Below, in pieces: positions 671-33,493 of a stretch of 64,000 bases of DNA. The position numbers and the translations under genes are program-made. The stretch is taken from NCBI GenBank assembly GCA_013215505.1, contig JABSQZ010000002.1:124001-188000 (forward strand). Direction: 5' to 3'. The notes beneath the pieces were generated by a model, which did no database searches, was not told the origin of the DNA, and saw only the letters and a list, made by a program, of their open reading frames with translations. Source of the DNA: Oceanospirillaceae bacterium (GTDB lineage: Bacteria; Pseudomonadota; Gammaproteobacteria; Pseudomonadales; Balneatricaceae). Within the stretch, counting starts at the first letter, position 1, and the number at the start of each line of letters is the position of its first letter.

Positions 671-2128
<1,458 letters not shown>

Positions 2129-4763: not shown

Positions 4764-5202
4764 TGGGGTACCTCTGTTTGTCTCTAGTGATGTCAACGGC
4801 TGCAGCCTCTTGCAGACAGAGGTTTTAGCGGCTAGTTTTTCAGTGGCTGTCAGAGATTAAATTTGCGCTAATTTGTCTATAAATTCAACAGAATATGGAT
4901 GTCGGGCGCATATCGGTCACAGTAATCCGGGCAATCGCAAAATCTAACGAGCAATCACAACAGCAATGGGGATAAATTATCGAGGTTTTCGCAGTTGATA
5001 GCGCCGGCAAGTTGTTCTAAAAAACAGCGTTAGTGCAGTGGGTAGCTGCATTGAAAGCAGTGTGTAGTAGGTTCTGTAACTATGCTGCATAGCCATTGAG
5101 CATCTCCTGTTTTTGCAAGTTGCCGGCCCTGGTGGATAGCTTCATAGGTTGTGAGCTAAGTGTGCCGGGCAATTACAAAGAGTAATATTTTTTAGAATTA
5201 TT

Positions 5203-5223
5203 TTTTACCATTTGGTCAATATT
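5203..5223 (-). promoter_or_regulatory. RutR-type operator upstream of the pyd-type genes
   Basis: On the minus strand this reads AATATTGACCA-AA-TGGTAAAA. The 16-bp core (5204-5219) matches the RutR consensus TTGACCA-N2-TGGTCAA at 13 of 14 defined positions. TTGACC could also serve as a -35 element for transcription toward the beta-ureidopropionase gene. The same 21-bp pattern, different only in the two central bases, is found upstream of cofG (31202-31222). The rest of the 4764-5406 gap holds no gene I can support apart from the heptamer array. Confidence 0.75.
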
Positions 5224-6351: not shown

Positions 6352-6541
6352 AGCAGAGCAACTTATTTGTTAGAATTATTGGTATCTTAAGCCCAATTTG
6401 TTAGGTAAGTAAATCCTTATCTAAGTATTAGTAATTTTAAATTTTTAAAAATTAAAAATGAGCGCAAACTGATTTTAATATCACTAAAACCAGAATATGC
6501 AGCCTGTTTGCTGCAATATTCGCACTATTGGGAGGAACCCC

Positions 6542-7885
6542 ATGTCTGAATTTGATTTGCAAAAGTCCGCTGGACTGTCTCGTCAAGAGCTGGAAGCGTA
6601 CTGGATGCCCTATACGGCAAACCGACAGTTTAAAGATGATCCGCGGATGATCGTTGAAGGTCAGGGCTGCTATTTAACCGATGCCAGGGGTCGTAAAATA
6701 TTTGACGGACTGTCTGGATTGTGGACTTGTGGTGCCGGTCACAGCAGAGTGGAGATTGCCGAGGCGGTGTCCAAGCAGCTGCGCCAGTTAGATTATGCCC
6801 CAGCTTTCCAGCACGGACATCCGAAGGCGTTTGAGTTAGCCAATAGAATTAAAGAATTTATGCCCAAGGGCTTAGATTACGTGTTTTTTACCGATTCTGG
6901 ATCAGAGGCCGCCGATACTTCACTGAAAATAGCGCGCGCCTATTGGCGCAAAAAAGGCGTGCCGACTAAAACTAAATTAATCGGCCGCTCTAAAGGTTAT
7001 CACGGGGTTAACTTTGGTGGCTTTAGCCTGGGTGGCATCGGAGGCAATCGCGCCATGTTTGGTCAGGGAGTCGACTGTGATCACCTGCCGCACACACTGC
7101 AGGCAGAAAATGCTTTTACTAAAGGCATGCCGCTGACAGGTGCAGAAAAAGCTGATGAACTATTAGAGCTGATCGCCCTGCACGATGCCTCTAACATTGC
7201 CGCAGTGATTATCGAGCCACTGGCAGGTTCCGCTGGGGTAATACCGCCTCCGGTTGGTTATTTACAAAGGCTCAGAGAAATCTGTGACCAGCACAACATC
7301 TTGTTGATTTTTGATGAAGTAATTACCGGCTTTGGCCGCATGGGCTCTAATACCGGCGCCGAAGAATTTGGCGTTACCCCGGATTTATTGAACGTTGCCA
7401 AGCAGCTTACCAATGGTGCAGTGCCTATGGGAGCGGTGGTAGCGACCAGTGAAATCTACCAGACCTTTATGGATAATGGCGGTGCCGAATACTTGGTAGA
7501 ATTGCCGCACGGTTATACTTATTCAGGGCACCCGGTGGCCTGTGCTGCAGCTCTGGCATCATTAGATATTTTAGAAAATGAGCAGCTTATTCCACGGGTA
7601 AAACAAATCAGCCCACTGTTTGAAGAGGCATTGCACAGCTTAAAGGGCACTCAATACATCACTGATATCCGCAACTACGGTTTAGCCGGTGCGTTGCAAA
7701 TTGAAGCTTACCCGGGTGAGCCGGCCAGAAGACCTTATGAAATAGCGATGAAACTTTGGGATAAGGGCTTTTATGTACGCTACGGCGGGGATACTATCCA
7801 GTTGGGTCTGCCGTTTATTGTCGAGCCCGAACAGATTGACAGTTTGATTAATGCAATTGGCGAATCTATCCAAGAGCTGAGTTAA
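6542..7885 (+). CDS. Omega-amino acid (beta-alanine)-pyruvate aminotransferase
   Basis: Class III PLP aminotransferase of 447 residues that moves the amino group of beta-alanine (or another omega-amino acid) to pyruvate, giving malonate semialdehyde and alanine. Seen: the opening SRQELEAYWMPYTANRQFK typical of this subfamily, PLP phosphate/ring segments TDSGSEAAD (118-125) and IFDEVITGFGR (256-266), and the Schiff-base lysine K287 in NVAKQLTNGAVPMG. I chose the ATG at 6542 because GGGAGG lies just upstream; the longer 6497 start has none. The next gene, 30 bp on, uses its product, so the pair completes the pyrimidine route from beta-alanine to acetyl-CoA. Putrescine or taurine could be alternative donors. 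Confidence 0.92.
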   Translation: MSEFDLQKSAGLSRQELEAYWMPYTANRQFKDDPRMIVEGQGCYLTDARGRKIFDGLSGLWTCGAGHSRVEIAEAVSKQLRQLDYAPAFQHGHPKAFELANRIKEFMPKGLDYVFFTDSGSEAADTSLKIARAYWRKKGVPTKTKLIGRSKGYHGVNFGGFSLGGIGGNRAMFGQGVDCDHLPHTLQAENAFTKGMPLTGAEKADELLELIALHDASNIAAVIIEPLAGSAGVIPPPVGYLQRLREICDQHNILLIFDEVITGFGRMGSNTGAEEFGVTPDLLNVAKQLTNGAVPMGAVVATSEIYQTFMDNGGAEYLVELPHGYTYSGHPVACAAALASLDILENEQLIPRVKQISPLFEEALHSLKGTQYITDIRNYGLAGALQIEAYPGEPARRPYEIAMKLWDKGFYVRYGGDTIQLGLPFIVEPEQIDSLINAIGESIQELS

Positions 7886-7915: not shown

Positions 7916-9406
7916 ATGAATACTATTGGACACATGATCAACGGCGAGATGCTCGACAATGCTGAGCGCACTCAGGACGTCTACAACCCATCTACAGGTG
8001 AGGTTAGCAAGCAAGTGGCTCTGGCCAGCCAGGAGACAGTTGAACAGGCGATAGCAGCGGCGCAAGCAGCTTTTCCGGCCTGGCGAAATACGCCTGTGGC
8101 GAAGCGCGCCCGGGTAATGTTTAAATTTAAGCAGTTGTTAGAAGAGAACGCGGAAAAAATCTGTGAACTGATTGGTGAAGAGCACGGAAAAATCTCTCAC
8201 GATGCGGCGGGAGAGCTACAGCGCGGCATCGAAAACGTCGAATATGCCTGTTATGCACCTGAGCTATTAAAAGGCGAGCACAGCAAAAACGTCGGCCCGA
8301 ATATTGATTCCTGGAGCGAGTTTCAGCCGCTGGGTGTCGTTGCCGGTATCACGCCGTTTAACTTCCCGGCAATGGTGCCACTGTGGATGTACCCAATGGC
8401 TATCGTCTGCGGCAACTGCTTTATACTAAAGCCCTCAGAACGCGATCCAAGTTCTACTATGTTTATCGCCCAGTTACTTATCGATGCAGGTCTGCCTCAG
8501 GGTGTAATGAACGTTGTTAACGGTGATAAAGTTGCAGTTGATACACTGTTACACGATGATCGAGTAATGGCTGTCAGCTTCGTTGGTTCGACACCAATCG
8601 CTGAGTATATCTATGCTACAGCCAGTGCCAACGGCAAGCGCTGTCAAGCACTAGGTGGTGCTAAGAACCACGCCATTATCATGCCGGATGCGGACATGGA
8701 TAATGCCGCACAGGCACTTATCGGCGCAGCCTTTGGCTCATCTGGCGAGCGCTGCATGGCTCTTTCATGTGTGGTTGCAGTAGGTGATCAGGCGGCCGAT
8801 CAGCTAATTGAAAAATTACAGACGGGTATGCAGTCGCTAAAAGTAGGTCCTTACAGTGATAGCAGCAACGACTTTGGTCCGCTGATCACTAAAGCGCACC
8901 TGCAGAAAGTGACAGGTTATATCGACAGCGCGGAAAGCGATGGCGCTACAGTGGTCGTTGATGGGCGTAACCCACAAGTTGAAGGTTATGAAGATGGCTA
9001 TTATGTCGGCGGTACTTTAATCGACAACGTCACTCCGGAAATGGTCAGCTACAAAGAGGAAATCTTTGGTCCGGTATTAGTCGTAGTACGTGTTGATACT
9101 ATGCAGCAAGCTATGGAGCTGATCGACAACCACGAGTATGGTAACGGTACTTGTATCTTCACCCGCGACGGTGAAGCGGCTCGCTACTTCAGCGATAACA
9201 TCAAAGTGGGCATGGTTGGGATCAACGTTCCTCTACCTGTTCCTGTTTCGTACCACAGCTTTGGTGGCTGGAAGCGTTCACTGTTTGGTGATCTGCATGC
9301 TTACGGTCCGGATTCAGTGCGTTTTTACACTAAGCGTAAGACTATTACTCAGCGCTGGCCTTCAGCGGGAGTACGTGAAGGGGCGCAGTTCGCTTTTCCT
9401 TCATAA
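7916..9406 (+). CDS. mmsA: CoA-acylating (methyl)malonate-semialdehyde dehydrogenase
   Basis: Oxidises malonate semialdehyde or methylmalonate semialdehyde with NAD+ and CoA to acetyl-CoA or propionyl-CoA with loss of CO2. The 496-residue protein has the aldehyde-dehydrogenase nucleotide fold (GITPFNFPAMVP 144-155, LKPSERDPS 171-179) and catalytic C280 in GSSGERCMALS. As in this subfamily the usual catalytic glutamate region is replaced by ALGGAKNHAIIMPD. Length and motifs match MmsA/IolA. It lies 30 bp after the aminotransferase. The two substrates would arise from uracil (via beta-alanine) and thymine (via beta-aminoisobutyrate), which fits the gene block. A 3' hairpin follows the stop. Confidence 0.95.
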   Translation: MNTIGHMINGEMLDNAERTQDVYNPSTGEVSKQVALASQETVEQAIAAAQAAFPAWRNTPVAKRARVMFKFKQLLEENAEKICELIGEEHGKISHDAAGELQRGIENVEYACYAPELLKGEHSKNVGPNIDSWSEFQPLGVVAGITPFNFPAMVPLWMYPMAIVCGNCFILKPSERDPSSTMFIAQLLIDAGLPQGVMNVVNGDKVAVDTLLHDDRVMAVSFVGSTPIAEYIYATASANGKRCQALGGAKNHAIIMPDADMDNAAQALIGAAFGSSGERCMALSCVVAVGDQAADQLIEKLQTGMQSLKVGPYSDSSNDFGPLITKAHLQKVTGYIDSAESDGATVVVDGRNPQVEGYEDGYYVGGTLIDNVTPEMVSYKEEIFGPVLVVVRVDTMQQAMELIDNHEYGNGTCIFTRDGEAARYFSDNIKVGMVGINVPLPVPVSYHSFGGWKRSLFGDLHAYGPDSVRFYTKRKTITQRWPSAGVREGAQFAFPS

Positions 9407-11500: not shown

Positions 11501-11514
11501 TATCGCTCTCCTGT

Positions 11515-12697: not shown

Positions 12698-12702
12698 ATA
12701 TT

Positions 12703-13566: not shown

Positions 13567-13569
13567 TAA

Positions 13570-21842: not shown

Positions 21843-22985
21843 ATGAAAATTGTTATTGCCCCTGATTCATTTAAAGAAAGCTTATCGGCACAGGGGGTGG
21901 CGGCTGCTATCCAGGCTGGCATGCAGTGCGTATTAAAAGATGCAGAGTATATACTGTTGCCGGTAGCCGATGGCGGCGAGGGCACAACAGATGCGTTGGT
22001 GGCAGCTACTAATGGCAGTTTCCAGCAGCTGCTGGCGACCGGGCCGCTAAGCAACAAACTGATGGCCACCTGGGGGCTACTTGGCAACAGTAACAGTGCG
22101 GTGATTGAAACTGCCGCCGCTTCCGGTCTAGATTTAGTCCCCTCTGAACAGCGCAACCCGCTGGTGGCGACCAGCTATGGCACCGGAGAGCTGATCATGG
22201 CAGCGCTGGAGCATGGTGTTGAGCATATTATCTTGGGCCTGGGCGGCAGTGCTACCAACGATGGCGGGGTGGGACTACTACAGGCACTGGGGGCAAAATT
22301 CTTGGATGCCAGCGGTAATAATATTAGTGTCGGTGGTGCCGGGCTTGCAGAATTGGCCAGTATCGACCTTGGTGCTCTGGATCCGCGCTTAGCGCAAGTG
22401 CGCTTTGAAGTTGCCTGCGATGTAGACAATCCGCTGACCGGTGAGCGCGGTGCCTCGGCGATTTTTGGTCCGCAAAAGGGCGCAGATGCGCAGATGGTTG
22501 TACAGTTAGATCAGAACTTGGCACACTTTGCCGCCGTCTTGCTCAGAGATACTGGTATAGATATCAGCACAGCGCCTGGCTCGGGTGCCGCGGGCGGAAT
22601 CGGGGCGGCGATGCTGCTGATGGCACAGGTGGAGTTGAAATCAGGGGTCGATATCGTGCTGGATGCGGTGCAGTTCGAGTCTCATCTTCAAGGTGCTGAT
22701 TTAGTCATCACCGGTGAGGGGCAAATCGATGGGCAGACCGCCAGCGGTAAAACGCCAGTTGGGGTGGCGCGCAGAGCTAAGCACAAAGGTGTGCCAGTGA
22801 TTGCCGTTGCCGGCAGCCTGACAGCTGAGGCGGATAATGTGCGCAGTGCCGGTATCGATGCGATCTTTAGCGTGGTACCTGGGGTAACTGACCTGCCGAG
22901 CGCACTGCGAAATGCCAGTGACAACTTAACTAAAACGGCCGCCAACATCGCCAGAATCTGGCAGTTGGCAGCCAACAGTAAATAA
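21843..22985 (+). CDS. Glycerate kinase (GarK/GlxK family)
   Basis: Phosphorylates D-glycerate with ATP; this family usually gives 2-phosphoglycerate. The 380-residue protein opens MKIVIAPDSFKESLSA and carries PVADGGEGTTDAL, GLGGSATNDGGVGLLQALGA, GPQKGA and VITGEGQIDGQTASGKTPVG, all family signatures. The ATG at 21843 follows GGAG. It ends four bases from the stop of the convergent M20 amidase gene, the last gene of the F420 operon. Phosphoglycerate is both a central metabolite and, in some F420 makers, the source of the side chain, so the placement is suggestive; the two units share no promoter. Confidence 0.93.
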   Translation: MKIVIAPDSFKESLSAQGVAAAIQAGMQCVLKDAEYILLPVADGGEGTTDALVAATNGSFQQLLATGPLSNKLMATWGLLGNSNSAVIETAAASGLDLVPSEQRNPLVATSYGTGELIMAALEHGVEHIILGLGGSATNDGGVGLLQALGAKFLDASGNNISVGGAGLAELASIDLGALDPRLAQVRFEVACDVDNPLTGERGASAIFGPQKGADAQMVVQLDQNLAHFAAVLLRDTGIDISTAPGSGAAGGIGAAMLLMAQVELKSGVDIVLDAVQFESHLQGADLVITGEGQIDGQTASGKTPVGVARRAKHKGVPVIAVAGSLTAEADNVRSAGIDAIFSVVPGVTDLPSALRNASDNLTKTAANIARIWQLAANSK

Positions 22986-22989
22986 GCGC

Positions 22990-24225
22990 TTAATTTGCCT
23001 GTAGCATTACCGCCTGAATTAACACATTGCAGCCGGCTTCCAGGTCTTTGGGGTCGGCATTTTCCGCTTCATTGTGACTGATACCATTTTCGCAGGGTAC
23101 AAACACCATAGCGGTGGGCGCGACCCGAGAGATATAACAGGCATCGTGACCGGCACCACTGACGATGTCGCGATGGCTGTAGCCTAAGTTTTGCGCCGCC
23201 TCGCGCACTGAATCGACACAGGACTTGTCAAAGGGTACAGGGGGCGAGTACCAAATCTCTTTAAACTCTAGTTGCAACCCCATCTGGGTGCTCAACTGAT
23301 CGGCGTACTCGCGCAGCTGTGCATCCATCTTCGACAGCACTGCATCATCCGGGTGTCTGAAGTCAATTGTAAAGAAAACTTCCCCGGGGATGACGTTTCT
23401 GGAGTTGGGGAAAACTTGCAGTAAGCCGACAGTGGCGCAGGCCAGTGGCGCATTACTTAAGCCAATTTGATTGACCTTATCGACGATGCGGGCGGCGCCT
23501 AGCAGCGCATCCTTACGTATCGGCATTGGGGTCGGCCCGGCATGTGCCTCCTGACCCGTTAAGGTCAGCTCATACCATCTCTGCCCCTGAGCATCAGTCA
23601 CTACACCTATGGTTTTTTCTTCATTCTCCAGTATCGGCCCCTGTTCTATATGCGCTTCAAAGAACGCTTTAAAGGCACGGTTGCCAACCTCTAACAAACC
23701 GTCGTAACCGATACGCTGTAGCTCTTCACCCATCGTTTTTCCATCCAGGTCAGCGCGACTCAGACCGTATTCTAAATCGAACACCCCGGCAAAAACGCCG
23801 GAGGCGACCATCGCTGGTGGAAAGCGTGAACCCTCTTCGTTGGTCCAGACAGTCGCCTCGATAGGGTGTAATGTCTGGATGTTGTTATCGTTCAGTGAGC
23901 GTATCACCTCCAACCCGCAGAGCACTCCGTAGATGCCATCAAATCTGCCGCCGGTGGGCTGGGTATCTAAATGGCTGCCCATTACTACTGGGGGCAATTG
24001 GTTGTCTTGTCCCGGGCGGCGGGCAAAGATGTTACCCATTTTATCGACACTGACAGTACAGCCAGCGTCTTCACACCAGGAGACAAACAAGTCCCGTCCC
24101 TGTTTATCCAGATCGGTCAGTGCCAGGCGGCAGACCCCACCTTTAGTAGTGGCGCCGATTTTAGCCATCTGCATCAAGCTATCCCAGAGCCGCTCGCCGT
24201 TTATTGTTATATTCTTCATTTCCAT
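22990..24225 (-). CDS. M20-family Zn carbamoyl amidase (hydantoinase/carbamoylase type)
   Basis: Metal-dependent hydrolase of N-carbamoyl amino acids (N-carbamoyl-L-amino acid hydrolase, allantoate amidohydrolase or M20-type beta-ureidopropionase). In 411 residues it shows the di-metal motifs GSHLDTQPTGGRFDGIYG (about 82-99), TNEEGSRF (about 128-135), HIEQGP (about 193-198) and SGAGHDACYISRVAPTAMVF near the C-terminus. The ATG at 24225 has AGGAAG upstream. It is the last gene of the F420 operon, 27 bp after the LLM oxidoreductase gene. A second, unrelated carbamoyl amidase (nitrilase fold) is encoded at 3891-4763. The pair may act on different ureides. Confidence 0.9.
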   Translation of the reverse strand: MEMKNITINGERLWDSLMQMAKIGATTKGGVCRLALTDLDKQGRDLFVSWCEDAGCTVSVDKMGNIFARRPGQDNQLPPVVMGSHLDTQPTGGRFDGIYGVLCGLEVIRSLNDNNIQTLHPIEATVWTNEEGSRFPPAMVASGVFAGVFDLEYGLSRADLDGKTMGEELQRIGYDGLLEVGNRAFKAFFEAHIEQGPILENEEKTIGVVTDAQGQRWYELTLTGQEAHAGPTPMPIRKDALLGAARIVDKVNQIGLSNAPLACATVGLLQVFPNSRNVIPGEVFFTIDFRHPDDAVLSKMDAQLREYADQLSTQMGLQLEFKEIWYSPPVPFDKSCVDSVREAAQNLGYSHRDIVSGAGHDACYISRVAPTAMVFVPCENGISHNEAENADPKDLEAGCNVLIQAVMLQAN

Positions 24226-24252
24226 ATCTTCCTTTGCAAGTTCAGCAGTGGC

Positions 24253-25254
24253 TTATCTAAAAGCCGGAATGATCTCTTTCGCATATGCGGCGATAATTTC
24301 TTCCTCTTCACCACTGTCCAGATAGATATTAAACTGGGTAGTACCTACCGCCTCTAATTCTTGGATTTTAGCAATGTGCTGATCTGCTTCGCCGAGCACG
24401 CTGAAGCTGTCGATGATATCGTCAGTGATGAAATCCAGGTACGGATTGTCACTCTGGCCGTGTTTCGAATAGTCGTAGCCTTTACGCTGCTCTATATAGT
24501 TAGTCAGACTCTCGGGCACTAAGCCGGAGTGGGCACCGTATTTTTCGACGATATCGGCGACGTGGTTACCGACCATGGCCGGGAACCAGCGGGTGGCATC
24601 GCGACACTTCGCCATGTCGCCCATATAGGCTGGCGCTGAGGCGATTATCTGATAATCGGACATGTCTCTGCCGGCCGCTTCGCCGGCAGTGAGCGCCTGT
24701 TGGGCAAACCATTGCACCAGTGAGGGATCGGCAATCTGCAAGATAACCCCATCGCCTACTTCGCCGGCTGTCTTTAATGCTTTCGGACCGTAGGCACCGA
24801 TATACATAGGCAGCTCATAACCGACTGCCCAGGGCAGCTTAACGGGCTCGGGGCTCTCGCCGTACTGCACTTCTTCACCGCGGACCATGGCTTTTACTTT
24901 AGTGGTAAATTCAGCCACTCTGGCTAAGTTGGCGGGCTTTTTACCCATCACCCGCATGGCGCTGTCGCCACGGCCCAGACCCACTACAAAACGACCCTCG
25001 CTCTGCAGTGCCAGGCTGGCAAATAAACTGGCGGCTACCGACCAATCTCTGGAGTTAGGATTGGTGACACAGGGGCCAAATTTCATCTTGCTGGTGTGTT
25101 CCATGCACATCGCAATCGCCGGGTAACACTCACGCCATAAAATATGTGAATCGTAAAACCAACAGTGAGAAAACCCTGCTTCTTCAGCCTGTTTAACCAG
25201 TTTACGGGCGCGATTAGGCTGTACGAAGCCTTTAAAAGTGATGCCAAAATCCAT
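24253..25254 (-). CDS. F420-type luciferase-like (LLM) oxidoreductase
   Basis: Flavin-superfamily TIM-barrel protein of 333 residues in the class that binds coenzyme F420 or FMN. It opens MDFGITFKGFVQPNRARKLV; core segments include VVGLGRGDSAMRVMGKKPA and MYIGAYGPKALKTAGEVGDG, typical of F420-dependent members; it resembles the CPS_4043-type family (from memory). A good AAGGAG precedes the ATG. It follows the F420 biosynthesis and F420-reductase genes in one minus-strand run and precedes a carbamoyl amidase gene. I infer that it uses F420H2 to reduce a cyclic ureide, most likely uracil/thymine, the one step of the pathway with no classical enzyme here. RutA-like monooxygenation is the main alternative. 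Confidence 0.85.
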   Translation of the reverse strand: MDFGITFKGFVQPNRARKLVKQAEEAGFSHCWFYDSHILWRECYPAIAMCMEHTSKMKFGPCVTNPNSRDWSVAASLFASLALQSEGRFVVGLGRGDSAMRVMGKKPANLARVAEFTTKVKAMVRGEEVQYGESPEPVKLPWAVGYELPMYIGAYGPKALKTAGEVGDGVILQIADPSLVQWFAQQALTAGEAAGRDMSDYQIIASAPAYMGDMAKCRDATRWFPAMVGNHVADIVEKYGAHSGLVPESLTNYIEQRKGYDYSKHGQSDNPYLDFITDDIIDSFSVLGEADQHIAKIQELEAVGTTQFNIYLDSGEEEEIIAAYAKEIIPAFR

Positions 25255-25403
25255 AACTTACTCCTTTTAATTCCGCAGTCTTCAGTGATCGGCAAAGCCT
25301 GTTAGTCACTGGGGTCTGTGGATGCATAGTGAGGAGTTATCAAAACAAGCTGCAAGCTGCTCTGTTAACTCCGAGACAAATTTTTGTTGTTATTTTTGCT
25401 ACA

Positions 25404-25473
25404 ACTTCCTACTTCCTACTTCCTACTTCCTACTTCCGACTTCCGACTTCCGACTTCCGACTTCCGACTTCCG
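25404..25473. repeat. Heptanucleotide array (ACTTCCT)4(ACTTCCG)6
   Basis: Ten tandem heptamers, four ACTTCCT then six ACTTCCG, ending two bases before the F420 reductase stop codon (TTA at 25476-25478 on the plus strand). The switch of the seventh base halfway suggests growth by slippage. It lies in the 221-bp spacer inside the F420 operon. Confidence 0.92.
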
Positions 25474-25475
25474 CC

Positions 25476-26144
25476 TTACGTTCCTGGCGCCCAGATCTTG
25501 ATGCCGGCATGAGAAAAGGGCACCTTTTTCGAGATGTTCAATCTGATCAGCATCGGGGTAATAGCCTCGACGCAGCGGGCGTTAACTGCGGGGCCGACGT
25601 TATAGGCGGTGACAGATAAGTGCTGTAATAATTCAATCACTGAGTTTTTTGCCTCCAGAGAGTTGCCGCAGACTAGAATGTCGCAGTTAATCGGCTGGTC
25701 CAGTTTGTTTAAAGTGGCTGCCGAGACATTGTGCAGTGCGCCTACTACTGGAATTTCTGCCCCGAGTATTGCCTGGGCAGCTTCTGTAGCGGAGCCCTCA
25801 ATTGGCATCTGTACCGCTTTCGGGTCGCCTTCTGCCAGAGGTACTACAATGTCGATCAAAATTTTGCCAGCCAGAGCGGGCTTGATGGCTTCCAGGGTAT
25901 TGTTGTGGGCGCTGTAGGGAACGGCCAGAATCACCATTTCCCCGGCACTGTCGATCGCCTGCAGGTTATCCCCGCCGCTGATCTGGCCCTTAGCTCCCGC
26001 TATTTGCTGATTTAATTGCTGTGCGATATCCATTGCTCGCTGGCTATCTCTTGAGCCTATAACTACATCGACTCCGGCGCGCGCAAAACGCAGTGCCAAA
26101 CCTTTTCCCTGGGGGCCGGTGCCGCCGAGAATTGCTATTTTCAT
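25476..26144 (-). CDS. npdG: F420:NADP(H) oxidoreductase
   Basis: Transfers hydride between NADPH and F420; in aerobic bacteria it makes F420H2. The 222-residue protein has the N-terminal nucleotide fold [18 protein letters not shown] (8-25) with GSRD (31-34) for NADP, then VILAVPY-type and [11 protein letters not shown] segments and the C-terminal dimer part, as in NpdG/Fno. GAGGAT lies before the ATG. It stands between cofE (22 bp upstream) and the LLM oxidoreductase gene, linking cofactor synthesis to use. NADPH could come from the transhydrogenase at the window start (inference). Confidence 0.92.
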
Positions 26145-26166
26145 TATTCTAATCCTCTGTCACTTT

Positions 26167-27030
26167 TTAACATTTAAATAAATCTTCACGGCTGGGCCTG
26201 ATAAGGTCACGGGCGCTACTATTAGTTGGGCTCCAATCAACCCCCCGAAAAATCAGTACCGGTCTTTTTCCCTCTTTGCTCATCAGCAGCCCGGATGCGG
26301 CTGCCAGCTCATCAGCCAGCGCCGGTACTGTCACTTTAAGCTCGCGACCATAAGCGTCACGCTCACCCGCCATATCCACTTGACTGGGGACATTGGCCAG
26401 GCCTATAGCGACATTTACTAAGCCCATTCGCCAGGGGCGACCAAAAGTATCAGTGATTACTACTCCTAAGCGCTTACCGCTGGCTCGCTCCAATTGGCTG
26501 CAGATCTGCCGGGCGCTGGCATCGGGATCTAGCGGCAGTAAAATGACGTGGTTGGGGCTATCTACATTCGATTCATCGACCGCGGCATTGGCGCAGATAA
26601 AGCCCAGGCGATGTTCGGCAATAATCAGACCCTCTTCCTGCTCTGGCCTTTTGCTGGCCCTGACAATACGTTTCGATTCGCTTAATACCACTTCTACTTT
26701 GGCGGGATTTTTATTCAGTTGCTCGGCCAGCTCCAGGGCTTTAGCCGAGGGCACAACTTTACTCAAATCGACAATCTGCCCCTCCGCTTTAGAGACGACT
26801 TTGTGCGCTATAACTAAAATATCGCCATCTTCGAATTGCAGCTCAAGTGCCTGCATGGCCCGCTGGATTTGCAGTGCCAGATCATCTCCCGGCACTATAT
26901 CGGGGATTCCAGTCACCGCCATCATTCCCACTTGCGGCACTGGTTGCGCTTTTTTCACAGCCGTAATGTCAGCAATTGGCTGGTCTGCTACAGCAGCGTT
27001 AGCGTTTAGAGTATTAATGATATTATTCAT
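26167..27030 (-). CDS. cofE: Coenzyme F420-0:L-glutamate ligase
   Basis: Adds glutamate residues to F420-0 with GTP. The 287-residue protein contains the CofE segments GIPDIVPGDDL, DGDILVIAHKVVSKAEGQIV, LGFICANAAVDESNVD, GVVITDTFGRPWRMGLVNVAIG and ERDAYGRELKVTVPALADELA. It lacks the C-terminal nitroreductase-like domain of mycobacterial FbiB, so it is the stand-alone type. Its ATG overlaps the cofC stop in ATGA (27027-27030), showing translational coupling. The N-terminal 30 residues before PQVGMMAVTGIP are longer than usual. Confidence 0.95.
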   Translation of the reverse strand: MNNIINTLNANAAVADQPIADITAVKKAQPVPQVGMMAVTGIPDIVPGDDLALQIQRAMQALELQFEDGDILVIAHKVVSKAEGQIVDLSKVVPSAKALELAEQLNKNPAKVEVVLSESKRIVRASKRPEQEEGLIIAEHRLGFICANAAVDESNVDSPNHVILLPLDPDASARQICSQLERASGKRLGVVITDTFGRPWRMGLVNVAIGLANVPSQVDMAGERDAYGRELKVTVPALADELAAASGLLMSKEGKRPVLIFRGVDWSPTNSSARDLIRPSREDLFKC

Positions 27031-27707
27031 ACAGCTAGGTCCTTGTGCACTGAGCTATTCAACACTTTTGGGTAGTGTAAATAACTGCTCTGGGTATTGT
27101 TTTTTAATTGCGCAACTAAGCGACTGCCAAGGCGTTGCAGATCACTGGGATTATCCAAATCCAGGGCCAGTTTGTCTAAATTGATGAACTGGCGGGCAAC
27201 TTTCGCCCGTTTGGCACTCTGGTAATGACTGCCACTGGAGTTCGCGCCGTAGCTGAAGGGGATAACATTGGGAGGTGTGCTTATCAAAGCGTTAGTGCCA
27301 CCATCCACTGCTGGGCAGATAACCACCGAGGGGGTTTCCCTGGGGCAGTTAAGTAACAGTGAAAATTCGGCGACATCCAGAGTCACAATGTCTGCCGGCA
27401 GTACCAGTTGGCTGCTGTAATTTAGTGTCATACACTCTGCTGCAGCACAGCTTAGAGCGTTGTTTAAACCTTTAGCTGAGGATTCCAGTAATACCTGGCA
27501 ACCATAATCTGTGGCGATGGCAGCGATAGATTTCGCCGGAGTCACTACTAAAATGGCAACTTGGGGAAAGTGTCGGTTGAGGAAGGTCAGAGTGTTTTGG
27601 AACAGATTCAACGCCAGACTCTGTCGTTCAGTATTATCCAAAACACAGCTGAGTCGCGATTTTGACTGACGGGGATCTTTCATCGGGATTACAATGCACA
27701 AGCTCAT
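27027..27707 (-). CDS. cofC: Phospholactate/phosphoenolpyruvate/phosphoglycerate guanylyltransferase
   Basis: Activates the three-carbon phospho-acid of F420 with GTP (2-phospholactate, PEP or 3-phosphoglycerate depending on lineage). The 226-residue nucleotidyltransferase shows CIVIPMKDPRQSKSRL at its N-terminus, LVLPADIVTL in the middle and GTNALISTPPNVIPFSYG later, matching CofC/FbiD. It overlaps cofD and cofE by ATGA at both ends. Substrate preference cannot be read with confidence from the sequence. Confidence 0.93.
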   Translation of the reverse strand: MSLCIVIPMKDPRQSKSRLSCVLDNTERQSLALNLFQNTLTFLNRHFPQVAILVVTPAKSIAAIATDYGCQVLLESSAKGLNNALSCAAAECMTLNYSSQLVLPADIVTLDVAEFSLLLNCPRETPSVVICPAVDGGTNALISTPPNVIPFSYGANSSGSHYQSAKRAKVARQFINLDKLALDLDNPSDLQRLGSRLVAQLKNNTQSSYLHYPKVLNSSVHKDLAV

Positions 27708-28711
27708 CTGCTCACCTGTTTTGTAGCGACGCTATTAATTGAGCTAATTTCCTGAGGAAGACCATTGCCGGGATTTTGCTGCTGATAATAATCCAGTAAT
27801 TCTTCAGCCAGTCGTACTTTATCGCCTCGCTCTGGCATCAGCGTGTCAGTGCAGGCAACTTGCATGCCCAGCGCCCGGATAGCATCACAGTACTGTTGGT
27901 CAGCGCTATCGATCACCAGCAGATCTAGCAGCGACTGATAGCATTGGGCCACGCCCAGTGCATCACTGCTAAAACCCAGTGAGCGGAGCATTTTATCGGC
28001 GGGGCCCTTGACCGTTTTGCCGGCAATAATAGGCGAGACCGCCATTTTAAAAGCACTGCTATTATCAATGGCGCTGCGTATACCGGGGATCGCCAGAATA
28101 GCGCCGATACTGACAATGGGGTTAGAGGGCGCAAATATAATCAGATCCGCCGCCGCTATTGCCGCCAGCGTCTCAGGGGTGGCGTTGGCCTGCTCTGCGC
28201 CCTGAAACTCTACCGCAGTGATTTCAGGCTGACACTGGTAGCGGACAAAGTAGCTCTGAAAATCCAACCAGCCGCGATCGGTGTTCAGTCTGGTTGGCAC
28301 ATTGTCATCCGTGGCTAACAGCAGCGGCACTTTAAGACCAAATTTAGCGGCAATGTCGGCGGCGATAACGCTGGGGCGTAGCCCTTTTTTGCGTTGTTCA
28401 GTGCGATAGATGTGGGTGGCAAAGTCCTGATCACCTAAATACATCCAGGTATCGACCCCCAGTAGCGCCAGTGCATCTAAGGTGTGATTGCTCTCATCTT
28501 TTAGTCCCCAGCCCTTAGTGCGGTCGATTCGCTCAGTCAAAGTGTAAGTAAGAGTGTCGATATCTGGTGAAACCCACAGGCCGTGAATTTCCTGATCATC
28601 GCCAATGTTACCGATAATACTCAGCCCTTCGCCGCAGCGGCTGTGCATTAACCCTTCAGCCATCTTGGCCCCACCGACACCGCCCGCTAACAATACTATG
28701 GATAAACTCAT
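27704..28711 (-). CDS. cofD: Phospho-acid transferase of F420 biosynthesis (CofD/FbiA)
   Basis: Joins the guanylylated three-carbon unit to the deazaflavin Fo to give F420-0 or dehydro-F420-0. About 335 residues from the ATG at 28711: glycine-rich start VLLAGGVGGAKMAEGLM, GDDQEIHGLWVSPDIDTL, GDQDFATHIYRTEQ, and FAPSNPIVSIGAILAIPGI, all CofD signatures. The preferred start overlaps the cofH stop (ATGA, 28708-28711); an in-frame ATG six codons upstream would lie deeper in cofH. Coupled to cofC downstream. Confidence 0.95.
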   Translation of the reverse strand: MSLSIVLLAGGVGGAKMAEGLMHSRCGEGLSIIGNIGDDQEIHGLWVSPDIDTLTYTLTERIDRTKGWGLKDESNHTLDALALLGVDTWMYLGDQDFATHIYRTEQRKKGLRPSVIAADIAAKFGLKVPLLLATDDNVPTRLNTDRGWLDFQSYFVRYQCQPEITAVEFQGAEQANATPETLAAIAAADLIIFAPSNPIVSIGAILAIPGIRSAIDNSSAFKMAVSPIIAGKTVKGPADKMLRSLGFSSDALGVAQCYQSLLDLLVIDSADQQYCDAIRALGMQVACTDTLMPERGDKVRLAEELLDYYQQQNPGNGLPQEISSINSVATKQVSR

Positions 28712-29958
28712 GTCAGGGCTCCGCTGCAACTGGCAATTAAATTCACAGATTGACGGTCGGGGTAGCTCTGTAATTTTGTGTACAAAGTATCGCGGCGATA
28801 GGCAGAAAGGCCGCTGTTTTGAATCATTGTCACCATGTCAGCAGGGAGTATTTCCTCGCCGTGGATACCGCCAGAGGACCGGGTGATCGTCTCGTCCATT
28901 AAAGTACCGCCCAGATCGTTGGCACCGGCACGTAACATTTGCTGGGCGTAGTTGGGGCCGAGCTTGACCCAGGAGGCCTGTATATTGTCAATCCAGCCGT
29001 TGAGCATAATCCGCGAAACCGCGTGCATTAAAATATTTTCATCGGCAGTGGGCCCTGGGCGTACATTCAACTTAAGCTTTTTTCGGTCGGTATACAGCGG
29101 TGACTCGTAGTGGACAAACCCCAGCGGCACAAACTCAGTGAAGCCGCGATGCTGTTTTTGCATCTCTCGCAATAGGGCTATATGCGCGGCCCAGTGATGC
29201 GGGGCGTCGATGTGGCCATACATGATGGTCGAGGTAGTAGGTAAACCCAATTGATGGGCTGCAGAGATGATCTCGACCCACTGCGCGGTGGTCAGTTTAT
29301 CGCGGGTTAGTTGCTTGCGTATCTCTACATCTAATATTTCCGCGGCAGTGCCTGGCATTGAGCCCAGGCCATGCTCCATTAAATCGGCGATAAAATCTTT
29401 GTAGCTCATGTTACTGTTTTTGGCGCCAAACATAATTTCGAAGGGAGAAAAGGCATGAATATGCATTTGTGGCACTTGTTTTTTAATGCTCTGCAATATT
29501 TTGCGGTAGTGATCCGCCGGTAAATCCGGGTGCAAGCCTCCCTGAATGCAAACCTCAGTGGCACCTCTGTCCCAAGCCTGCTGAGCTCTTTTGGCGATTT
29601 CTTGCATAGATAGCAGTTGTGCATCGGTGTCGTTCTTGCCCTTGGAAAAGCCGCAGAATTTACAACCCATGTAACAGATGTTGGTGAAGTTAATATTACG
29701 GGTAATGACAAAACTGGCGCTGTCACCGACAGTGCGCTGGCGAATGATATCGGCACATTGCGCGATGGCGGCTACGTCGTTACCACTACTGGAAAACAGC
29801 GCTGTTCCCTCCTGTTCGGTGATTTCTTCACCGCACAGAGCTCGCTGTAAAATAGTGGCTATAGGTTTGCTGACTGCAACTAGATCCAGGCTAGCGTTAA
29901 TAGCAGTTGGATGATTAGCAATTTGGCTGTGACGGACTTGGCTATTCAAAGTAAACAT
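28708..29958 (-). CDS. cofH: Fo synthase subunit 2 (radical SAM)
   Basis: With CofG makes the deazaflavin Fo from tyrosine and the flavin precursor 5-amino-6-ribitylamino-uracil. At 416 residues it has the radical-SAM cysteines CYMGCKFC (C95, C99, C102) followed by GFSKGKND, and CIQGGLHPD, HAFSPFE, LGSMPGTAAEIL and TTSTIMYGH, as in CofH. The first ATG (29958) follows GAGG directly, so the ribosome site is tight; an in-frame TTG three codons on is an alternative. A 53-bp gap separates it from cofG. Its stop overlaps the cofD start. Confidence 0.95.
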   Translation of the reverse strand: MFTLNSQVRHSQIANHPTAINASLDLVAVSKPIATILQRALCGEEITEQEGTALFSSSGNDVAAIAQCADIIRQRTVGDSASFVITRNINFTNICYMGCKFCGFSKGKNDTDAQLLSMQEIAKRAQQAWDRGATEVCIQGGLHPDLPADHYRKILQSIKKQVPQMHIHAFSPFEIMFGAKNSNMSYKDFIADLMEHGLGSMPGTAAEILDVEIRKQLTRDKLTTAQWVEIISAAHQLGLPTTSTIMYGHIDAPHHWAAHIALLREMQKQHRGFTEFVPLGFVHYESPLYTDRKKLKLNVRPGPTADENILMHAVSRIMLNGWIDNIQASWVKLGPNYAQQMLRAGANDLGGTLMDETITRSSGGIHGEEILPADMVTMIQNSGLSAYRRDTLYTKLQSYPDRQSVNLIASCSGALT

Positions 29959-30011
29959 CCTCTGTCAAAACTGATTGTTATTGTTAGATTTGTTGCGTTG
30001 TTACTTCTAAG

Positions 30012-31139
30012 TTAGAGGCATTGCACAGCAGCTAGGCCATCAGCTCTGGCGATGCTGTCGAGGCGCGTGGCAATACTTGCGGCGAAATAACGCTGCGGTG
30101 ATTTTTGGTATTTGGGGTAAACCGCCAGCCGCTCGCGCAGCTGGTAGCCACAATCACTACTGGCTTGTGCCAGCTGAGAAATCTGTGGCCAGGCCCGCTC
30201 CGGATTAATATGATCGATGGTCAGCGGAGAGATACCGCCAAAATCATTGATTCCGCTGTTCAGGTAAGCACGGTAACGCTGTTGTAAATTTGGCGGAGCC
30301 TGCAAACTGATACTGGGATCTAAGATCAATCTGGCGACTGCCAGGGTGCGCAACATATCATCCAAATCCGGCTCGGCGGCATTGGCCATCGCCGTGTCTT
30401 CCTTGGCGCAAAAATTTTGCACTATCACTTCCTGGATATGACCGTACTGCTGATGGATTTCATTGATGGCGATTAAGCTGTCGACGCGCTCTTGCCAGTT
30501 TTCTCCGATGCCGATTAAGATACCAGTGGTGAAAGGTATATCTAGTTGTCCGGCGCGCTCTAAAGTACGCAGCCGCTGTTTGGGCACTTTATCGGGACAG
30601 GCGTAATGGACATTGCCCTTGAGCAGCAGCCGTGGCGAGATGTTCTCTAGCATCATACCCATGCTGGCGCTGACCGGTTTTAATTGGCGCATTTCTTGTA
30701 GCGATAAAGTACCTGCATTGACGTGCGGTAACATGTCACTGTGTTCAATGACTTGCTGACACATCTGCTCTAAGTAATCGGTCATCGAGGCGTAGCCCAT
30801 CAATTCCAATCTGGCGCGAACTTGTGGGTAGCGTCGCTCAGGTTTTTCTCCGAGACTGAACAGCACTTCTTTACAGCCTAACTGCTGGCCTTCTGCAACT
30901 ACTTTCAGTACTTGCTCGGGGGTCATAATGTAAGCTTGAGGAGAATCCGGGTGTTTAACAAAAGTGCAGTAGCTGCAAGTGTCGCGGCACATGTTAGTGA
31001 GAGGCACAAACACTTTGCGCGAATAAGTCACGGTTTTACCCCAGTGTTGCTCGCGCCATTGACTGGCCTGGGCACAGAGCTGTTGCAGCTCATCACCCGA
31101 TACTTTGCCTGCGGCTATTGCCTGTGCTCTAGATATCAT
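30012..31139 (-). CDS. cofG: Fo synthase subunit 1 (radical SAM)
   Basis: Radical-SAM partner of CofH in Fo formation; 375 residues with cluster cysteines CRDTCSYC (C51, C55, C58), then TFVKHP, LFSLGEKPE, LPHVNAGTLS, SMGMMLENISPRL and TTGILIGIGE, as in CofG. GGAGAAG lies upstream of the ATG. First gene of the operon cofG-cofH-cofD-cofC-cofE-npdG-LLM-amidase. Two RutR-like boxes lie 64-110 bp upstream of the start. Separate CofG and CofH differ from the fused FbiC of actinobacteria. Confidence 0.95.
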   Translation of the reverse strand: MISRAQAIAAGKVSGDELQQLCAQASQWREQHWGKTVTYSRKVFVPLTNMCRDTCSYCTFVKHPDSPQAYIMTPEQVLKVVAEGQQLGCKEVLFSLGEKPERRYPQVRARLELMGYASMTDYLEQMCQQVIEHSDMLPHVNAGTLSLQEMRQLKPVSASMGMMLENISPRLLLKGNVHYACPDKVPKQRLRTLERAGQLDIPFTTGILIGIGENWQERVDSLIAINEIHQQYGHIQEVIVQNFCAKEDTAMANAAEPDLDDMLRTLAVARLILDPSISLQAPPNLQQRYRAYLNSGINDFGGISPLTIDHINPERAWPQISQLAQASSDCGYQLRERLAVYPKYQKSPQRYFAASIATRLDSIARADGLAAVQCL

Positions 31140-31201
31140 GCCAACTTCTCCAACAATTTTATTTTTTTATTAGTTGTTTGGAACTGTAGTAGATCAAAAA
31201 G

Positions 31202-31249
31202 TTTTACCAAGTGGTCAATATTTTAGCTAGTTGTTTAGTAATTGGTCAA
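31202..31249 (-). promoter_or_regulatory. Tandem RutR-type operators upstream of cofG
   Basis: Box 1 (core 31203-31218) reads AATATTGACCA-CT-TGGTAAAA on the minus strand, 13 of 14 defined positions of TTGACCA-N2-TGGTCAA and identical outside N2 to the box upstream of the pyd-type genes. Box 2 (31234-31249) has one perfect half TTGACCA and a degenerate partner. Centres are 31 bp apart, about three helical turns. TTGACC of box 1 could act as -35 for cofG. Repression lifted by uracil/thymine is inferred from RutR of E. coli. Confidence 0.75.
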
Positions 31250-31385
31250 TAGTTAATTTGCATTAAAAATTAACAGTTATAGATCAGTATGTTATTGATG
31301 AATTGCGTTGTTGCTGGCCTCTGTCGGAGTACTTTGCGGGATGATTTTTACGGCAGAATCTTCAGCATCGGCTGCGTGACCCGGC

Positions 31386-31410
31386 AAAAAAAAGCGGCCA
31401 ATAGGCCGCC
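31386..31410 (-). terminator. Rho-independent terminator after the amino-acid binding-protein gene
   Basis: On the minus strand: GGCGGCC-TATT-GGCCGC followed by eight T. It starts about 20 bases after the binding-protein stop at 31431. Confidence 0.92.
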
Positions 31411-31430
31411 GAAGGAGTGTCTAGAGACTG

Positions 31431-32453
31431 CTATCGAAGTGGTGGCGAATACTGAATCCCGCCATTTGTCCACAGCGCGTTGATACCGCGATCCAGTTGC
31501 AGGGGTGTGCTCTTACCCAAATTTCGCTCAAAAGATTCGCCGTAATTACCCACTTGTTTGATGATATCGTAAGCCCACTTTTGCTTCAGGCCTAACATAA
31601 CCCCGAGCTTCGACTGGTTCACTCCCAACAGGGCTTGAGCTCGCGGGTCTTTAGTATTAGTAGCGCGTTGATCGAGGTTCTGCGAGGTGATGTTCATCTC
31701 CTCCGCGGCGATCATCACATTGAAACTCCATTTAACGATATCTAACCACTGGTCATCGCCGTGGCGCACTACTGGTCCCAATGGCTCCTTGGAGATTATT
31801 TCTGGTAAGAAAAAGTGCTCTTGAGGGTTTGCAAACCTGGAGCGTCGGGCCGCTAGGGCCGAGCTGTCGGCGGTATAGGCATCGCAGCGTCCCAACAGGT
31901 AATTCTGGTGGGCCTCATTGGCGGTGCCTACCGGTACAGATTCGAAGGTCATTTGCCGAGAGTGGAAGTATTCGGCTAAATTGATCTCTGTGGTGGTGCT
32001 GGTCTCATAGCAGATAGAGGCGCCATTTAACCCCTTTGCCGAATTAATGCCCAAACTGTTTGGCACCATGAACCCCTGTCCGTCGTAGTAATTGATCCCG
32101 GCATAGTTAACCCCCAGGCTAGTGTCGCGGGAGTAAGTCCAAGTGGTGGTCCGCGATAACAAATCAATTTTACCGCTGGTTAAGACTTCAAAGCGCTCTT
32201 TAGCTGACAGGGGGAAATATTTAACTTTGTCGGCGTCGCCAAAAACTGCGGCAGCGACTGCGCGGCAGATATCCACATCAAAACCTACCCATTTACCCTG
32301 TGCATCTTTTTTCGAGAAACCGGCGATATCAGGTTTGACGCCGCAGTTCAAAACACCGCGCTGGATCACTTCTTCTAAGGTAGTAGCAAAGATCTGGCTG
32401 GCATACAGAGCACTGATGCTGAATGCTATTGGGATGAGAAGTTTCATTTTCAA
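31431..32453 (-). CDS. Amino-acid ABC transporter substrate-binding protein (AapJ-like), orphan
   Basis: Periplasmic family-3 solute-binding protein, 340 residues, Sec signal peptide MKMKLLIPIAFSISALYASQ ending near ATTLEEV. Family segments: RGVLNCGVKPDIAGFS, GFDVDICRAVAAAVFGD, LTSGKIDLLSRTTTWTYSRD, and DAYTADSSALAARRS, like general L-amino-acid binding protein AapJ. No permease or ATPase gene is adjacent, so it may serve a distant importer. It has its own terminator. The RutR boxes downstream face away from it. The 32454-32857 gap upstream shows no supported feature beyond an ordinary promoter-sized AT-rich region. Confidence 0.9.
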   Translation of the reverse strand: MKMKLLIPIAFSISALYASQIFATTLEEVIQRGVLNCGVKPDIAGFSKKDAQGKWVGFDVDICRAVAAAVFGDADKVKYFPLSAKERFEVLTSGKIDLLSRTTTWTYSRDTSLGVNYAGINYYDGQGFMVPNSLGINSAKGLNGASICYETSTTTEINLAEYFHSRQMTFESVPVGTANEAHQNYLLGRCDAYTADSSALAARRSRFANPQEHFFLPEIISKEPLGPVVRHGDDQWLDIVKWSFNVMIAAEEMNITSQNLDQRATNTKDPRAQALLGVNQSKLGVMLGLKQKWAYDIIKQVGNYGESFERNLGKSTPLQLDRGINALWTNGGIQYSPPLR

Positions 32454-32857
32454 AAATTCCTATAGGCAAAATATATCATCGGCGAAAGGTCGAATTATTA
32501 ACTTGCTAATTATAGTTATTTTCAGCGGGGTGAACTGAATATTGCCTTATAGGAGAACAGATTGTAACAATTTTTCACAAATTAGGAATAAACCTAAGCT
32601 TACTAAAACACTGTTATAAATAGCCCAGCAGGGGAGGCTTTGGGTAAAAAAGAAGAGTTTAAAAAGAACGGGTATAGTTATCCGATACCTAGAAATATGA
32701 GAGTAAGCTGCTTATTTTTTGGGGGCGCTGAGTCACATAATTCTTAGTTTTTCCAAGGGAGATTATTGAGAATAGTGTTAGCTCTTCAGACTAAAGTTAG
32801 CTTTTATTTTAGGGTCAAAGACAGCACCAAAGGGATTAGCCGTTGTCCGCAATAAAG

Positions 32858-33493
32858 TTACTTTATCCCCAACCCTTTAATCACTAACCTGGTTAAAAAA
32901 TCACCGGCAGCGGCGAAATCTTCATCTTGCAGTTGGCTTTTTCCCAGCGCTAACTCAATCTGAGAAGAAAAATCTGCATAAGTTTGAGTGGAGGCCCAAA
33001 TCATAAAAAACAGATGGTAGGGATCAACTGGATCCATCTTTCCCTCTTTAATCCAGGTTCGGATTAATTGCACATCGTCTTGCAGTTGCGGTAGTAAGTG
33101 GCTGGCAATGTATTCTTTTAAGCGTGGAGCACCATTGATAATTTCGTTAGCAAAAACCTTAGAACCATTGGGGTGGGTTTTAGAAATTTCGATCTTGCCC
33201 CTGATATAGCTGGAAATCATGGTTTTGGGATCATCGCCGCGCTGGGCCAGCAATGCCATTTTATCAATCCACAAGTTTAAAATGTTCTCTAGCACTTTTT
33301 GGTACAGCACTTCTTTTGAGGGAAAGTAATACAGTAAGTTCTGTTTAGTCAGTCCGGTTAACTCGGCAATGCTATTAATGGAGGCACCATGGAAGCCGTA
33401 TTGAGCAAAAACATCTTCAGCCGCGTTCAGAATACGTTGCTCAGTACGCTCTCTGGAAAGACGTTTTGGCTTAGATTGACTGTTCTTATCCAT
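32858..33493 (-). CDS. rutR: RutR-like TetR family regulator (pyrimidine-responsive)
   Basis: A 211-residue TetR-family protein, the same length as E. coli RutR (212). The DNA-binding domain (about 17-65) reads ILNAAEDVFAQYGFHGASIN then LTKQNLLYYFPSKEVLYQKV; the C-terminal half keeps the RutR pattern WIKEGKMDPVDPYHLFFMIW then ASTQTYADFSSQIE, where E. coli RutR binds uracil. Sites matching the RutR consensus lie upstream of cofG and the pyd-type genes, so it is the probable regulator of both. It is monocistronic; no box precedes its own gene, so autoregulation is not evident. Assignment rests on my recall of RutR sequence. Confidence 0.85.
   Translation of the reverse strand: MDKNSQSKPKRLSRERTEQRILNAAEDVFAQYGFHGASINSIAELTGLTKQNLLYYFPSKEVLYQKVLENILNLWIDKMALLAQRGDDPKTMISSYIRGKIEISKTHPNGSKVFANEIINGAPRLKEYIASHLLPQLQDDVQLIRTWIKEGKMDPVDPYHLFFMIWASTQTYADFSSQIELALGKSQLQDEDFAAAGDFLTRLVIKGLGIK

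Follow-up and report, generated by a model that had tools for sequence, protein, structure and literature searches.

The reductive breakdown of pyrimidines is known to start with PreT-PreA (PydA), which consists of a dihydroorotate dehydrogenase-like flavin mononucleotide (FMN) domain, [4Fe-4S] clusters, and a GltD-like partner; in the Rut pathway, RutA is an FMN/oxygen monooxygenase. In this study, we analyzed a stretch of 64,000 nucleotides (the window) from an Oceanospirillaceae bacterium (GCA_013215505.1, contig JABSQZ010000002.1, positions 124,001 to 188,000), in which a luciferase-like monooxygenase (LLM)-type oxidoreductase is encoded together with the genes for coenzyme F420 synthesis. 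Unlike PreT-PreA, this LLM protein is an unrelated barrel that is predicted to use reduced F420 (F420H2). We consider it very probable that the locus encodes reductive pyrimidine degradation with its first enzyme replaced nonorthologously, the LLM protein and F420H2 standing in for PreT-PreA. The proposal is that the LLM protein would work like a dihydropyrimidine dehydrogenase, not that it is of the PreA type; it has another fold.

Why Proteobacteria make F420 was named as an unanswered question in a 2021 review, whose accessible text also states that no F420-dependent enzyme from bacteria beyond Actinobacteria had been studied experimentally as of 2021 and that trace amounts of F420 had been reported from two Alphaproteobacteria (PMC8498797). 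The earlier note on this DNA, which was made from the letters alone, knew of no established role of F420 in pyrimidine reduction. This statement stands for the open literature, where we found no report (most subscription journals lay outside the search) and where the nearest case is a putative yanthine analogue, as described in the accessible text of PMC12507026.

The F420/LLM genes of the window are listed below, with bit scores judged against the curated NCBIfam cutoffs.

30012..31139, minus strand: CofG, F420 precursor (FO) synthase subunit, first gene of the operon (TIGR03550, 470 bits; cutoff, 213)
28708..29958, minus strand: CofH, FO synthase subunit (TIGR03551, 497 bits; cutoff, 374)
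27704..28729, minus strand: CofD phospholactate transferase (TIGR01819, 288 bits; cutoff, 257)
27027..27707, minus strand: CofC guanylyltransferase (TIGR03552, 149 bits; cutoff, 105)
26167..27030, minus strand: CofE, F420-0:gamma-glutamyl ligase (TIGR01916, 263 bits; cutoff, 181)
25476..26144, minus strand: NpdG, NADPH-dependent F420 reductase, proposed supplier of F420H2 (TIGR01915, 199 bits; cutoff, 150)
24253..25254, minus strand: LLM oxidoreductase, proposed F420H2-dependent dihydropyrimidine dehydrogenase (uracil/thymine reductase) (TIGR03842, 506.4 bits; cutoff, 295.45)
22990..24225, minus strand: M20 amidase of the hydantoinase/carbamoylase family, proposed N-carbamoyl-beta-alanine amidohydrolase (beta-ureidopropionase) (TIGR01879, 437 bits; cutoff, 204)
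32858..33493, minus strand: RutR-like TetR regulator, proposed uracil/thymine-responsive repressor of both operons (TIGR03613, 197.4 bits, under the cutoff)

The genes cofG-cofH-cofD-cofC-cofE-npdG-LLM-M20 form one minus-strand run from 31139 down to 22990, within which neighbors overlap or lie less than 55 bp apart, except npdG and the LLM gene, which are separated by 221 bp. All of them score above their cutoffs, and every component that the earlier note named for this operon (F420 synthesis, NADPH:F420 reductase, LLM oxidoreductase, and carbamoyl amidase) is present. Judged from genes alone, the host should make F420: the cofGHDCE set is complete in the window. A second block, between 671 and 9406, carries further pyrimidine genes.

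671..2113, minus strand: dihydropyrimidinase (TIGR02033, 606 bits; cutoff, 393; 797 bits to the D-hydantoinase/dihydropyrimidinase of PDB entry 5e5c)
2300..3796, minus strand: NCS1-family nucleobase:cation symporter (TIGR00800, 325 bits, under the cutoff of 353)
3891..4796, minus strand: carbon-nitrogen hydrolase, N-carbamoylputrescine amidase-like, possible second ureidopropionase (TIGR03381, 253 bits, under the cutoff of 410)
5407..6351, minus strand: LysR regulator, divergent from aptA (Pfam LysR domains)
6497..7885, plus strand: AptA omega-aminotransferase, proposed to act on beta-alanine and beta-aminoisobutyrate (NF052567, 717 bits; cutoff, 500)
7916..9406, plus strand: coenzyme A (CoA)-acylating methylmalonate/malonate-semialdehyde dehydrogenase (TIGR01722, 681 bits; cutoff, 449)

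The transport, dihydropyrimidinase, ureidopropionase, aminotransferase, and semialdehyde dehydrogenase functions that had been read from the window are thus all present; however, the NCS1 and carbon-nitrogen hydrolase proteins lie under their cutoffs. Dihydropyrimidinase (TIGR02033) and a ureidopropionase-type amidase (TIGR01879) together mark a reductive pyrimidine pathway, and the genes of the window account for each step in the conversion of uracil or thymine to acetyl- or propionyl-CoA apart from ring reduction.

In the scheme that we propose, uracil or thymine would enter via the NCS1 permease, NpdG would reduce F420 with NADPH, and the LLM protein, taking over the role of the flavin/iron-sulfur enzyme PreT-PreA, would use F420H2 as the hydride donor to reduce the pyrimidine at its C5=C6 bond, yielding dihydrouracil or dihydrothymine. 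Dihydropyrimidinase would open the ring, the M20 amidase (or the carbon-nitrogen hydrolase) would take off the carbamoyl group, AptA would deaminate the resulting beta-alanine or beta-aminoisobutyrate, and the semialdehyde dehydrogenase would yield acetyl- or propionyl-CoA. The RutR-like repressor would sense pyrimidine and control the F420/LLM and dihydropyrimidinase operons via RutR-box-like sites. The accessible text of the 2021 review gives a standard potential of -340 mV for F420 and states that the bacterial NADPH:F420 enzyme runs mainly toward F420 reduction (PMC8498797); therefore, the direction from NADPH via F420H2 to dihydropyrimidine is reasonable. It is scarcely credible that the LLM protein runs in reverse or acts at another step of the pathway, for example, by oxidizing an intermediate with F420. 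F420 enzymes of the same fold do include the dehydrogenases FGD and Adf; however, the later steps have candidates in the window, only ring reduction lacks one, and the usual direction of the NADPH:F420 enzyme (PMC8498797) also speaks against such a role.

The genome that contains the window (G000; 5.73 Mb, 52 contigs, 98% complete) gave no match to PreA (NF006183) at an E value of ≤1e-40; this model, which scored over its cutoff in 2 of 14 known genomes used as a control, was the only dihydropyrimidine dehydrogenase model searched, and a dehydrogenase unlike PreA could escape it. The absence of a recognizable dihydropyrimidine dehydrogenase, which the earlier note had reported for the window, thus holds for PreA across the genome. 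RutA, the only rut gene included in the search, had no match in this genome at the same threshold and was found in none of the 116 genomes that make up the window's family.

In a phylum-level sample of 229 genomes, TIGR03842 was present in only 2, including the genome that contains the window, which was too sparse for an analysis of co-occurrence; therefore, two families were used. In the window's family (116 genomes), a TIGR03842 LLM gene is present in 23 genomes and cofG in the identical 23; PreA scores over its cutoff in 19 other genomes, and no genome has both LLM and PreA. Dihydropyrimidinase was found in 47 genomes, and its places (n = 49) split into two types by identity to the window protein (68 to 98% versus 37 to 40%). 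The 580-bit threshold between the types was set after the scores had been seen, and identity was then used, which moved one fragment (G044) into type 1; the types of G079, G082, and G098 were assigned by score alone and those of G081 and G104 by identity. Type 1 is carried by 42 genomes, 22 with LLM, 19 with PreA, none with both, and 1 with neither; the association of type 1 with either reductase gave a Fisher's exact value of 1e-30, computed before G044 was reassigned and on genomes that are related. As to the second type, locus L186 of the window's genome (contig 8, 108000 to 126000) holds a dihydropyrimidinase-family gene that is 37% identical to that of the window and has no link to LLM or PreA there, and 14 more such places in relatives show 37 to 40% identity.

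The second family, that of G273, comprises 48 genomes of one genus. The LLM gene is present in 24 of these, and dihydropyrimidinase and cofG are each present in 25, the same 25 genomes for both; the other 23 have none of the three, and PreA was found in 0 of 48 at an E value of ≤1e-40. G360, which has dihydropyrimidinase and cofG without LLM, was dismissed as an exception, as the start of its contig lies inside cofC. Identity of the dihydropyrimidinase to that of the window was measured for L181 and L185 only (63%). The survey proposed in the earlier note has therefore returned the predicted co-occurrence in both families, with PreA complementary to LLM in the first and absent from the second. 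These distributions make it quite unlikely that F420 serves a separate redox task, such as detoxification, with the LLM and cof genes merely coregulated and an unrecognized dehydrogenase reducing uracil. PF00296 was the only F420-enzyme family searched in the window's genome (its two members there are the LLM protein and an MsnO8-type protein on contig 3), and PreA and RutA were the only known first enzymes searched, which leaves some room for that explanation; however, it would account neither for the either/or relationship with PreA nor for a family devoid of PreA in which the genomes with dihydropyrimidinase are those with cofG.

Gene neighborhoods point to the same replacement of PreT-PreA by LLM and F420H2. 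The sample consisted of the best 80 of 395 close LLM relatives, searched by tblastn with the window proteins, and many of its loci are cut by contig ends. Around the LLM gene we found NpdG and CofE (74 loci each), CofD, CofH, and CofC (73 each), the RutR-like regulator (68), CofG (66), and the M20 amidase (65), followed by NCS1 (47, of which 34 at ≥45% identity), dihydropyrimidinase (26), semialdehyde dehydrogenase (19), LysR (18), AptA (17), and the carbon-nitrogen hydrolase (6); each of the remaining 19 window genes tested occurred at 0 to 4 of the 80 loci, and PreA and PreT occurred at none. Of the 14 genomes without cofG at the locus, 13 have it elsewhere, so that 79 of the 80 LLM genomes carry cofG. 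In the genomes of L099, L102, L138, L139, and L140, the distant cofG match lies in an open frame of 840 to 1,094 amino acids, suggesting a fused, FbiC-like CofGH. At nine PreA loci, PreT-PreA stands with dihydropyrimidinase (9/9), a RutR-like gene (7/9), and the M20 amidase (6/9); PreT-PreA occupies the same slot that LLM-cof occupies elsewhere. In Streptomyces sp. BHT-5-2, one strand carries, in succession, a carbon-nitrogen hydrolase, an AptA-like stretch (29% identity), an unassigned open reading frame, a dihydropyrimidinase (554 bits), and a TIGR03842 protein (590 bits).

The window LLM protein belongs to TIGR03842 (F420_CPS_4043), a hypothetical equivalog without function in the NCBIfam release of June 2026. 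In its structure model (pLDDT, 85), the barrel is closest to those of F420-dependent enzymes, with Z scores of 29 to 35, versus 25 for RutA, and RutA (TIGR03612; cutoff, 498.3) is not among the 19 NCBIfam families that the protein matches at an E value of ≤0.001. A RutA-like role for the LLM protein, as a flavin-dependent monooxygenase in an oxidative attack on uracil, with the cof genes adjacent for another reason, is therefore highly improbable; such a reading is also at odds with the identical distribution of LLM and cofG (23 of 116 genomes) and with the position of npdG inside the operon. The protein is not Mer, the F420-dependent methylene-tetrahydromethanopterin (H4MPT) reductase, either: it scores 142.1 bits against TIGR03555 (cutoff, 348.7). 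At the position of the catalytic Glu6 of Mer, 40 LLM sequences have Thr (28) or Cys (12), and the Streptomyces protein has Val; the pterin-facing residues D97, Q173, and M227 are retained, and the LLM proteins have an additional conserved loop around 257 to 271. Position 178 of the aligned Mer chain is Asn by our count and is printed as Gln178 in the accessible text of the Mer paper. Retention of the pterin-site residues without the activating glutamate suggests that the LLM protein shares ancestry with a pterin-site enzyme and that its hydride may have been redirected to the pyrimidine ring.

The RutR homologue that had been noted beside the operon was recovered in part. A TetR protein is encoded at 32858 to 33493; however, it falls below both RutR equivalog cutoffs (TIGR03613, 197.4 versus 368; NF011584, 187.2 versus 230) and is therefore named RutR-like. 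The uracil-contact residues of Escherichia coli RutR are W77, Y97, W167, Q171, and Q179, according to the accessible text of PMC10891134. When aligned to that protein, the window regulator has all five (5/5), as do 66 of 68 regulators of LLM loci (the other 2 have Leu for W77) and 7 of 7 regulators of PreA loci. For its operator, we took the consensus of the RutR box to be TTGACCANNTGGTCAA; the accessible literature confirms a palindrome of about 16 bp, not its letters. Two sites in the window match it with ≤2 mismatches.

31203..31218, no strand: RutR-box-like palindrome TTTACCAAGTGGTCAA, 1 mismatch to TTGACCANNTGGTCAA, about 64 bp before the cofG start
5204..5219, no strand: RutR-box-like palindrome TTTACCATTTGGTCAA, 1 mismatch to TTGACCANNTGGTCAA, about 410 bp before the carbon-nitrogen hydrolase/NCS1/dihydropyrimidinase genes

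At ≤3 mismatches, the window has 7 matches versus 3.05 expected, a number reached in 1 of 100 shuffles, and only the two 1-mismatch sites were used. Across 92 loci (1.70 Mb), which are related and whose counts are not independent, there were 122 sites with ≤2 mismatches, versus 5, 3, and 7 in three mononucleotide shuffles; such a site lies within 350 bp before cofG at 37 of 66 loci. Among the sites with ≤1 mismatch (n = 44), 41 fall in the 450 bp upstream of a pathway gene, regions that make up 6.6% of the sequence; of the other 3, 2 are located in the pathway genes themselves and 1 in neither setting. The core ACCANNTGGT was found within 300 bp upstream of cofG (45/66), M20 (13/71), the RutR-like gene (14/73), and PreT (3/9); before the inner genes it was seen for CofH once (1/73) and never for LLM (0/77), NpdG (0/74), CofE (0/74), CofC (0/66), or CofD (0/73). 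Of the 66 cofG leaders, 29 have no site at ≤2 mismatches; the apparent lack of a RutR box in Marinomonas among these was rejected as an artefact of the strict pattern, and 14 Marinomonas leaders picked from the 29 all contain ACCAAATGGT. The predicted site is thus associated above all with F420 synthesis, and in the other set of species it is also present before PreT; for the dihydropyrimidinase operon, the window shows a clear association that does not hold generally.

It is unlikely that the LLM protein, although F420 dependent, reduces not uracil or thymine but some other ring that dihydropyrimidinase-type enzymes can open, for example, one derived from a purine or that of an unsaturated hydantoin. 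Dihydropyrimidinases are also called D-hydantoinases, the M20 enzyme belongs to the hydantoinase/carbamoylase family, and in Chloroflexota a luciferase-family F420-dependent enzyme has been put forward as a reductase of yanthine (accessible text of PMC12507026). The regulator, however, retains the uracil-contact residues of RutR, and PreT-PreA is what occupies this slot in other genomes. Moreover, uracil and thymine are expected to yield beta-alanine and beta-aminoisobutyrate, whose further conversion AptA and the semialdehyde dehydrogenase would suit.

Several observations weigh against pyrimidine reduction by the LLM protein or narrow what its distribution can say, beyond the reach of the PreA search given above. 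Sites with ≤2 mismatches lie within 350 bp of only 8 of 34 dihydropyrimidinase and 4 of 44 NCS1 starts; the core ACCANNTGGT is missing from 21 of 66 cofG leaders and is rare within 300 bp of dihydropyrimidinase (2/34), NCS1 (2/44), and AptA (0/16) starts. Three genomes of the window's family are exceptions: G044 (87% complete, 490 contigs) has a type-1 fragment at a contig end and neither reductase; G014 has LLM, and no type-1 dihydropyrimidinase was found in it; and G055 has LLM together with a PreA-like protein of 219 bits, below the cutoff of 335, whose gene has no PreT and no dihydropyrimidinase in the 18 kb around it. G056 also has a PreA match below the cutoff (218 versus 335 bits). On one Paracoccus plasmid and one Leisingera plasmid, cofGHDCE-npdG-LLM has no annotated dihydropyrimidinase within 10 kb. 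In the dihydropyrimidinase tree of the family, one label change is enough (support, 99/96; 17 of 22 LLM and 14 of 19 PreA rows), indicating a single swap within the family; the split of 22 versus 19 genomes would therefore represent one module swap, inherited or transferred, and not many. In one genus (g13), some species have LLM and others PreA. A broader tree built from 38 selected rows (Alphaproteobacteria, Cellvibrionaceae, Marinomonas, Colwellia, Halomonas, Vibrio, and Streptomyces; 26 of 27 named LLM loci entered, L125 falling under the length filter) needs 2 changes, with PreA-linked rows among the LLM-linked ones, and its well-supported branches still permit 1.

Other genes lie close to the system. 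The interval marked in the earlier note starts within a glycerate kinase gene (21831 to 22985, plus strand); a lone family-3 solute-binding protein gene (31431 to 32453, minus strand) lies between the RutR-like gene and cofG; and a TrpE/PabB-like plus TrpG/PabA-like pair (33734 to 35775, minus strand), below the equivalog cutoffs shown, adjoins the RutR-like gene. The TrpE/TrpG-like pair, the solute-binding gene, and the glycerate kinase were rejected as parts of the system, being conserved in 0 (each gene of the pair), 0, and 2 of the 80 loci, respectively. A polyamine-type ABC transporter (10433 to 14424, plus strand), below the curated Pot cutoffs among the matches shown, lies beside the aptA and semialdehyde dehydrogenase genes, and a 5'-nucleotidase (53941 to 54876, plus strand; PF06189, 422 bits) possibly feeds nucleobases. 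On a Leisingera aquaemixtae plasmid (L189), the F420/LLM cassette adjoins both NAD(P) transhydrogenase subunits, a possible source of NADPH for F420 reduction.

The support for an F420H2-dependent first step is comparison based and consists of gene content, a distribution complementary to that of PreA, a shared neighborhood, site-like palindromes, the uracil-contact residues of the regulator, and an F420-enzyme fold; from it we infer the LLM reaction, its direction, and its induction by uracil. The flow from NADPH to F420H2 to dihydropyrimidine that the earlier note had put forward has gained in plausibility through the co-occurrence, PreA complementarity, RutR-box-like sites, and regulator residues. 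On balance, we also favor a broader proposal: that TIGR03842 is a class of F420H2-dependent dihydropyrimidine dehydrogenases that has displaced the iron-sulfur enzyme in many marine Gammaproteobacteria, with a distant second clade working in Actinobacteria; that the proteobacterial F420 operon is a uracil-regulated catabolic module, F420 serving chiefly in pyrimidine breakdown; and that the class shares ancestry with a pterin-site enzyme. If this is true, TIGR03842 would gain a function, the question of why Proteobacteria make F420 would have an answer, and a soluble, iron-sulfur-free enzyme would join the few known routes of attack on the pyrimidine ring. F420 would then be predicted to appear in the presence of uracil or thymine; this might also bear on the trace amounts reported from two Alphaproteobacteria.

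The finding is thus of a known pathway with a proposed new first step and, if confirmed, a new enzyme class. The system resembles PreT-PreA/PydA in the reaction proposed and in its slot beside dihydropyrimidinase, the M20 amidase, and a RutR-like regulator. It shares with the Rut pathway a predicted uracil-sensing TetR regulator and its box and an LLM-fold protein proposed to act at the first step. From Mer it differs in having Thr, Cys, or Val in place of the catalytic Glu6 and in its extra loop. The putative yanthine reductase of Chloroflexota, likened here by its description in the accessible text of PMC12507026, differs in belonging to a purine (urate) pathway next to SsnA; like the LLM protein proposed here, it would be a luciferase-family F420 enzyme that replaces an iron-sulfur or flavin reductase before a ring-opening hydrolase.

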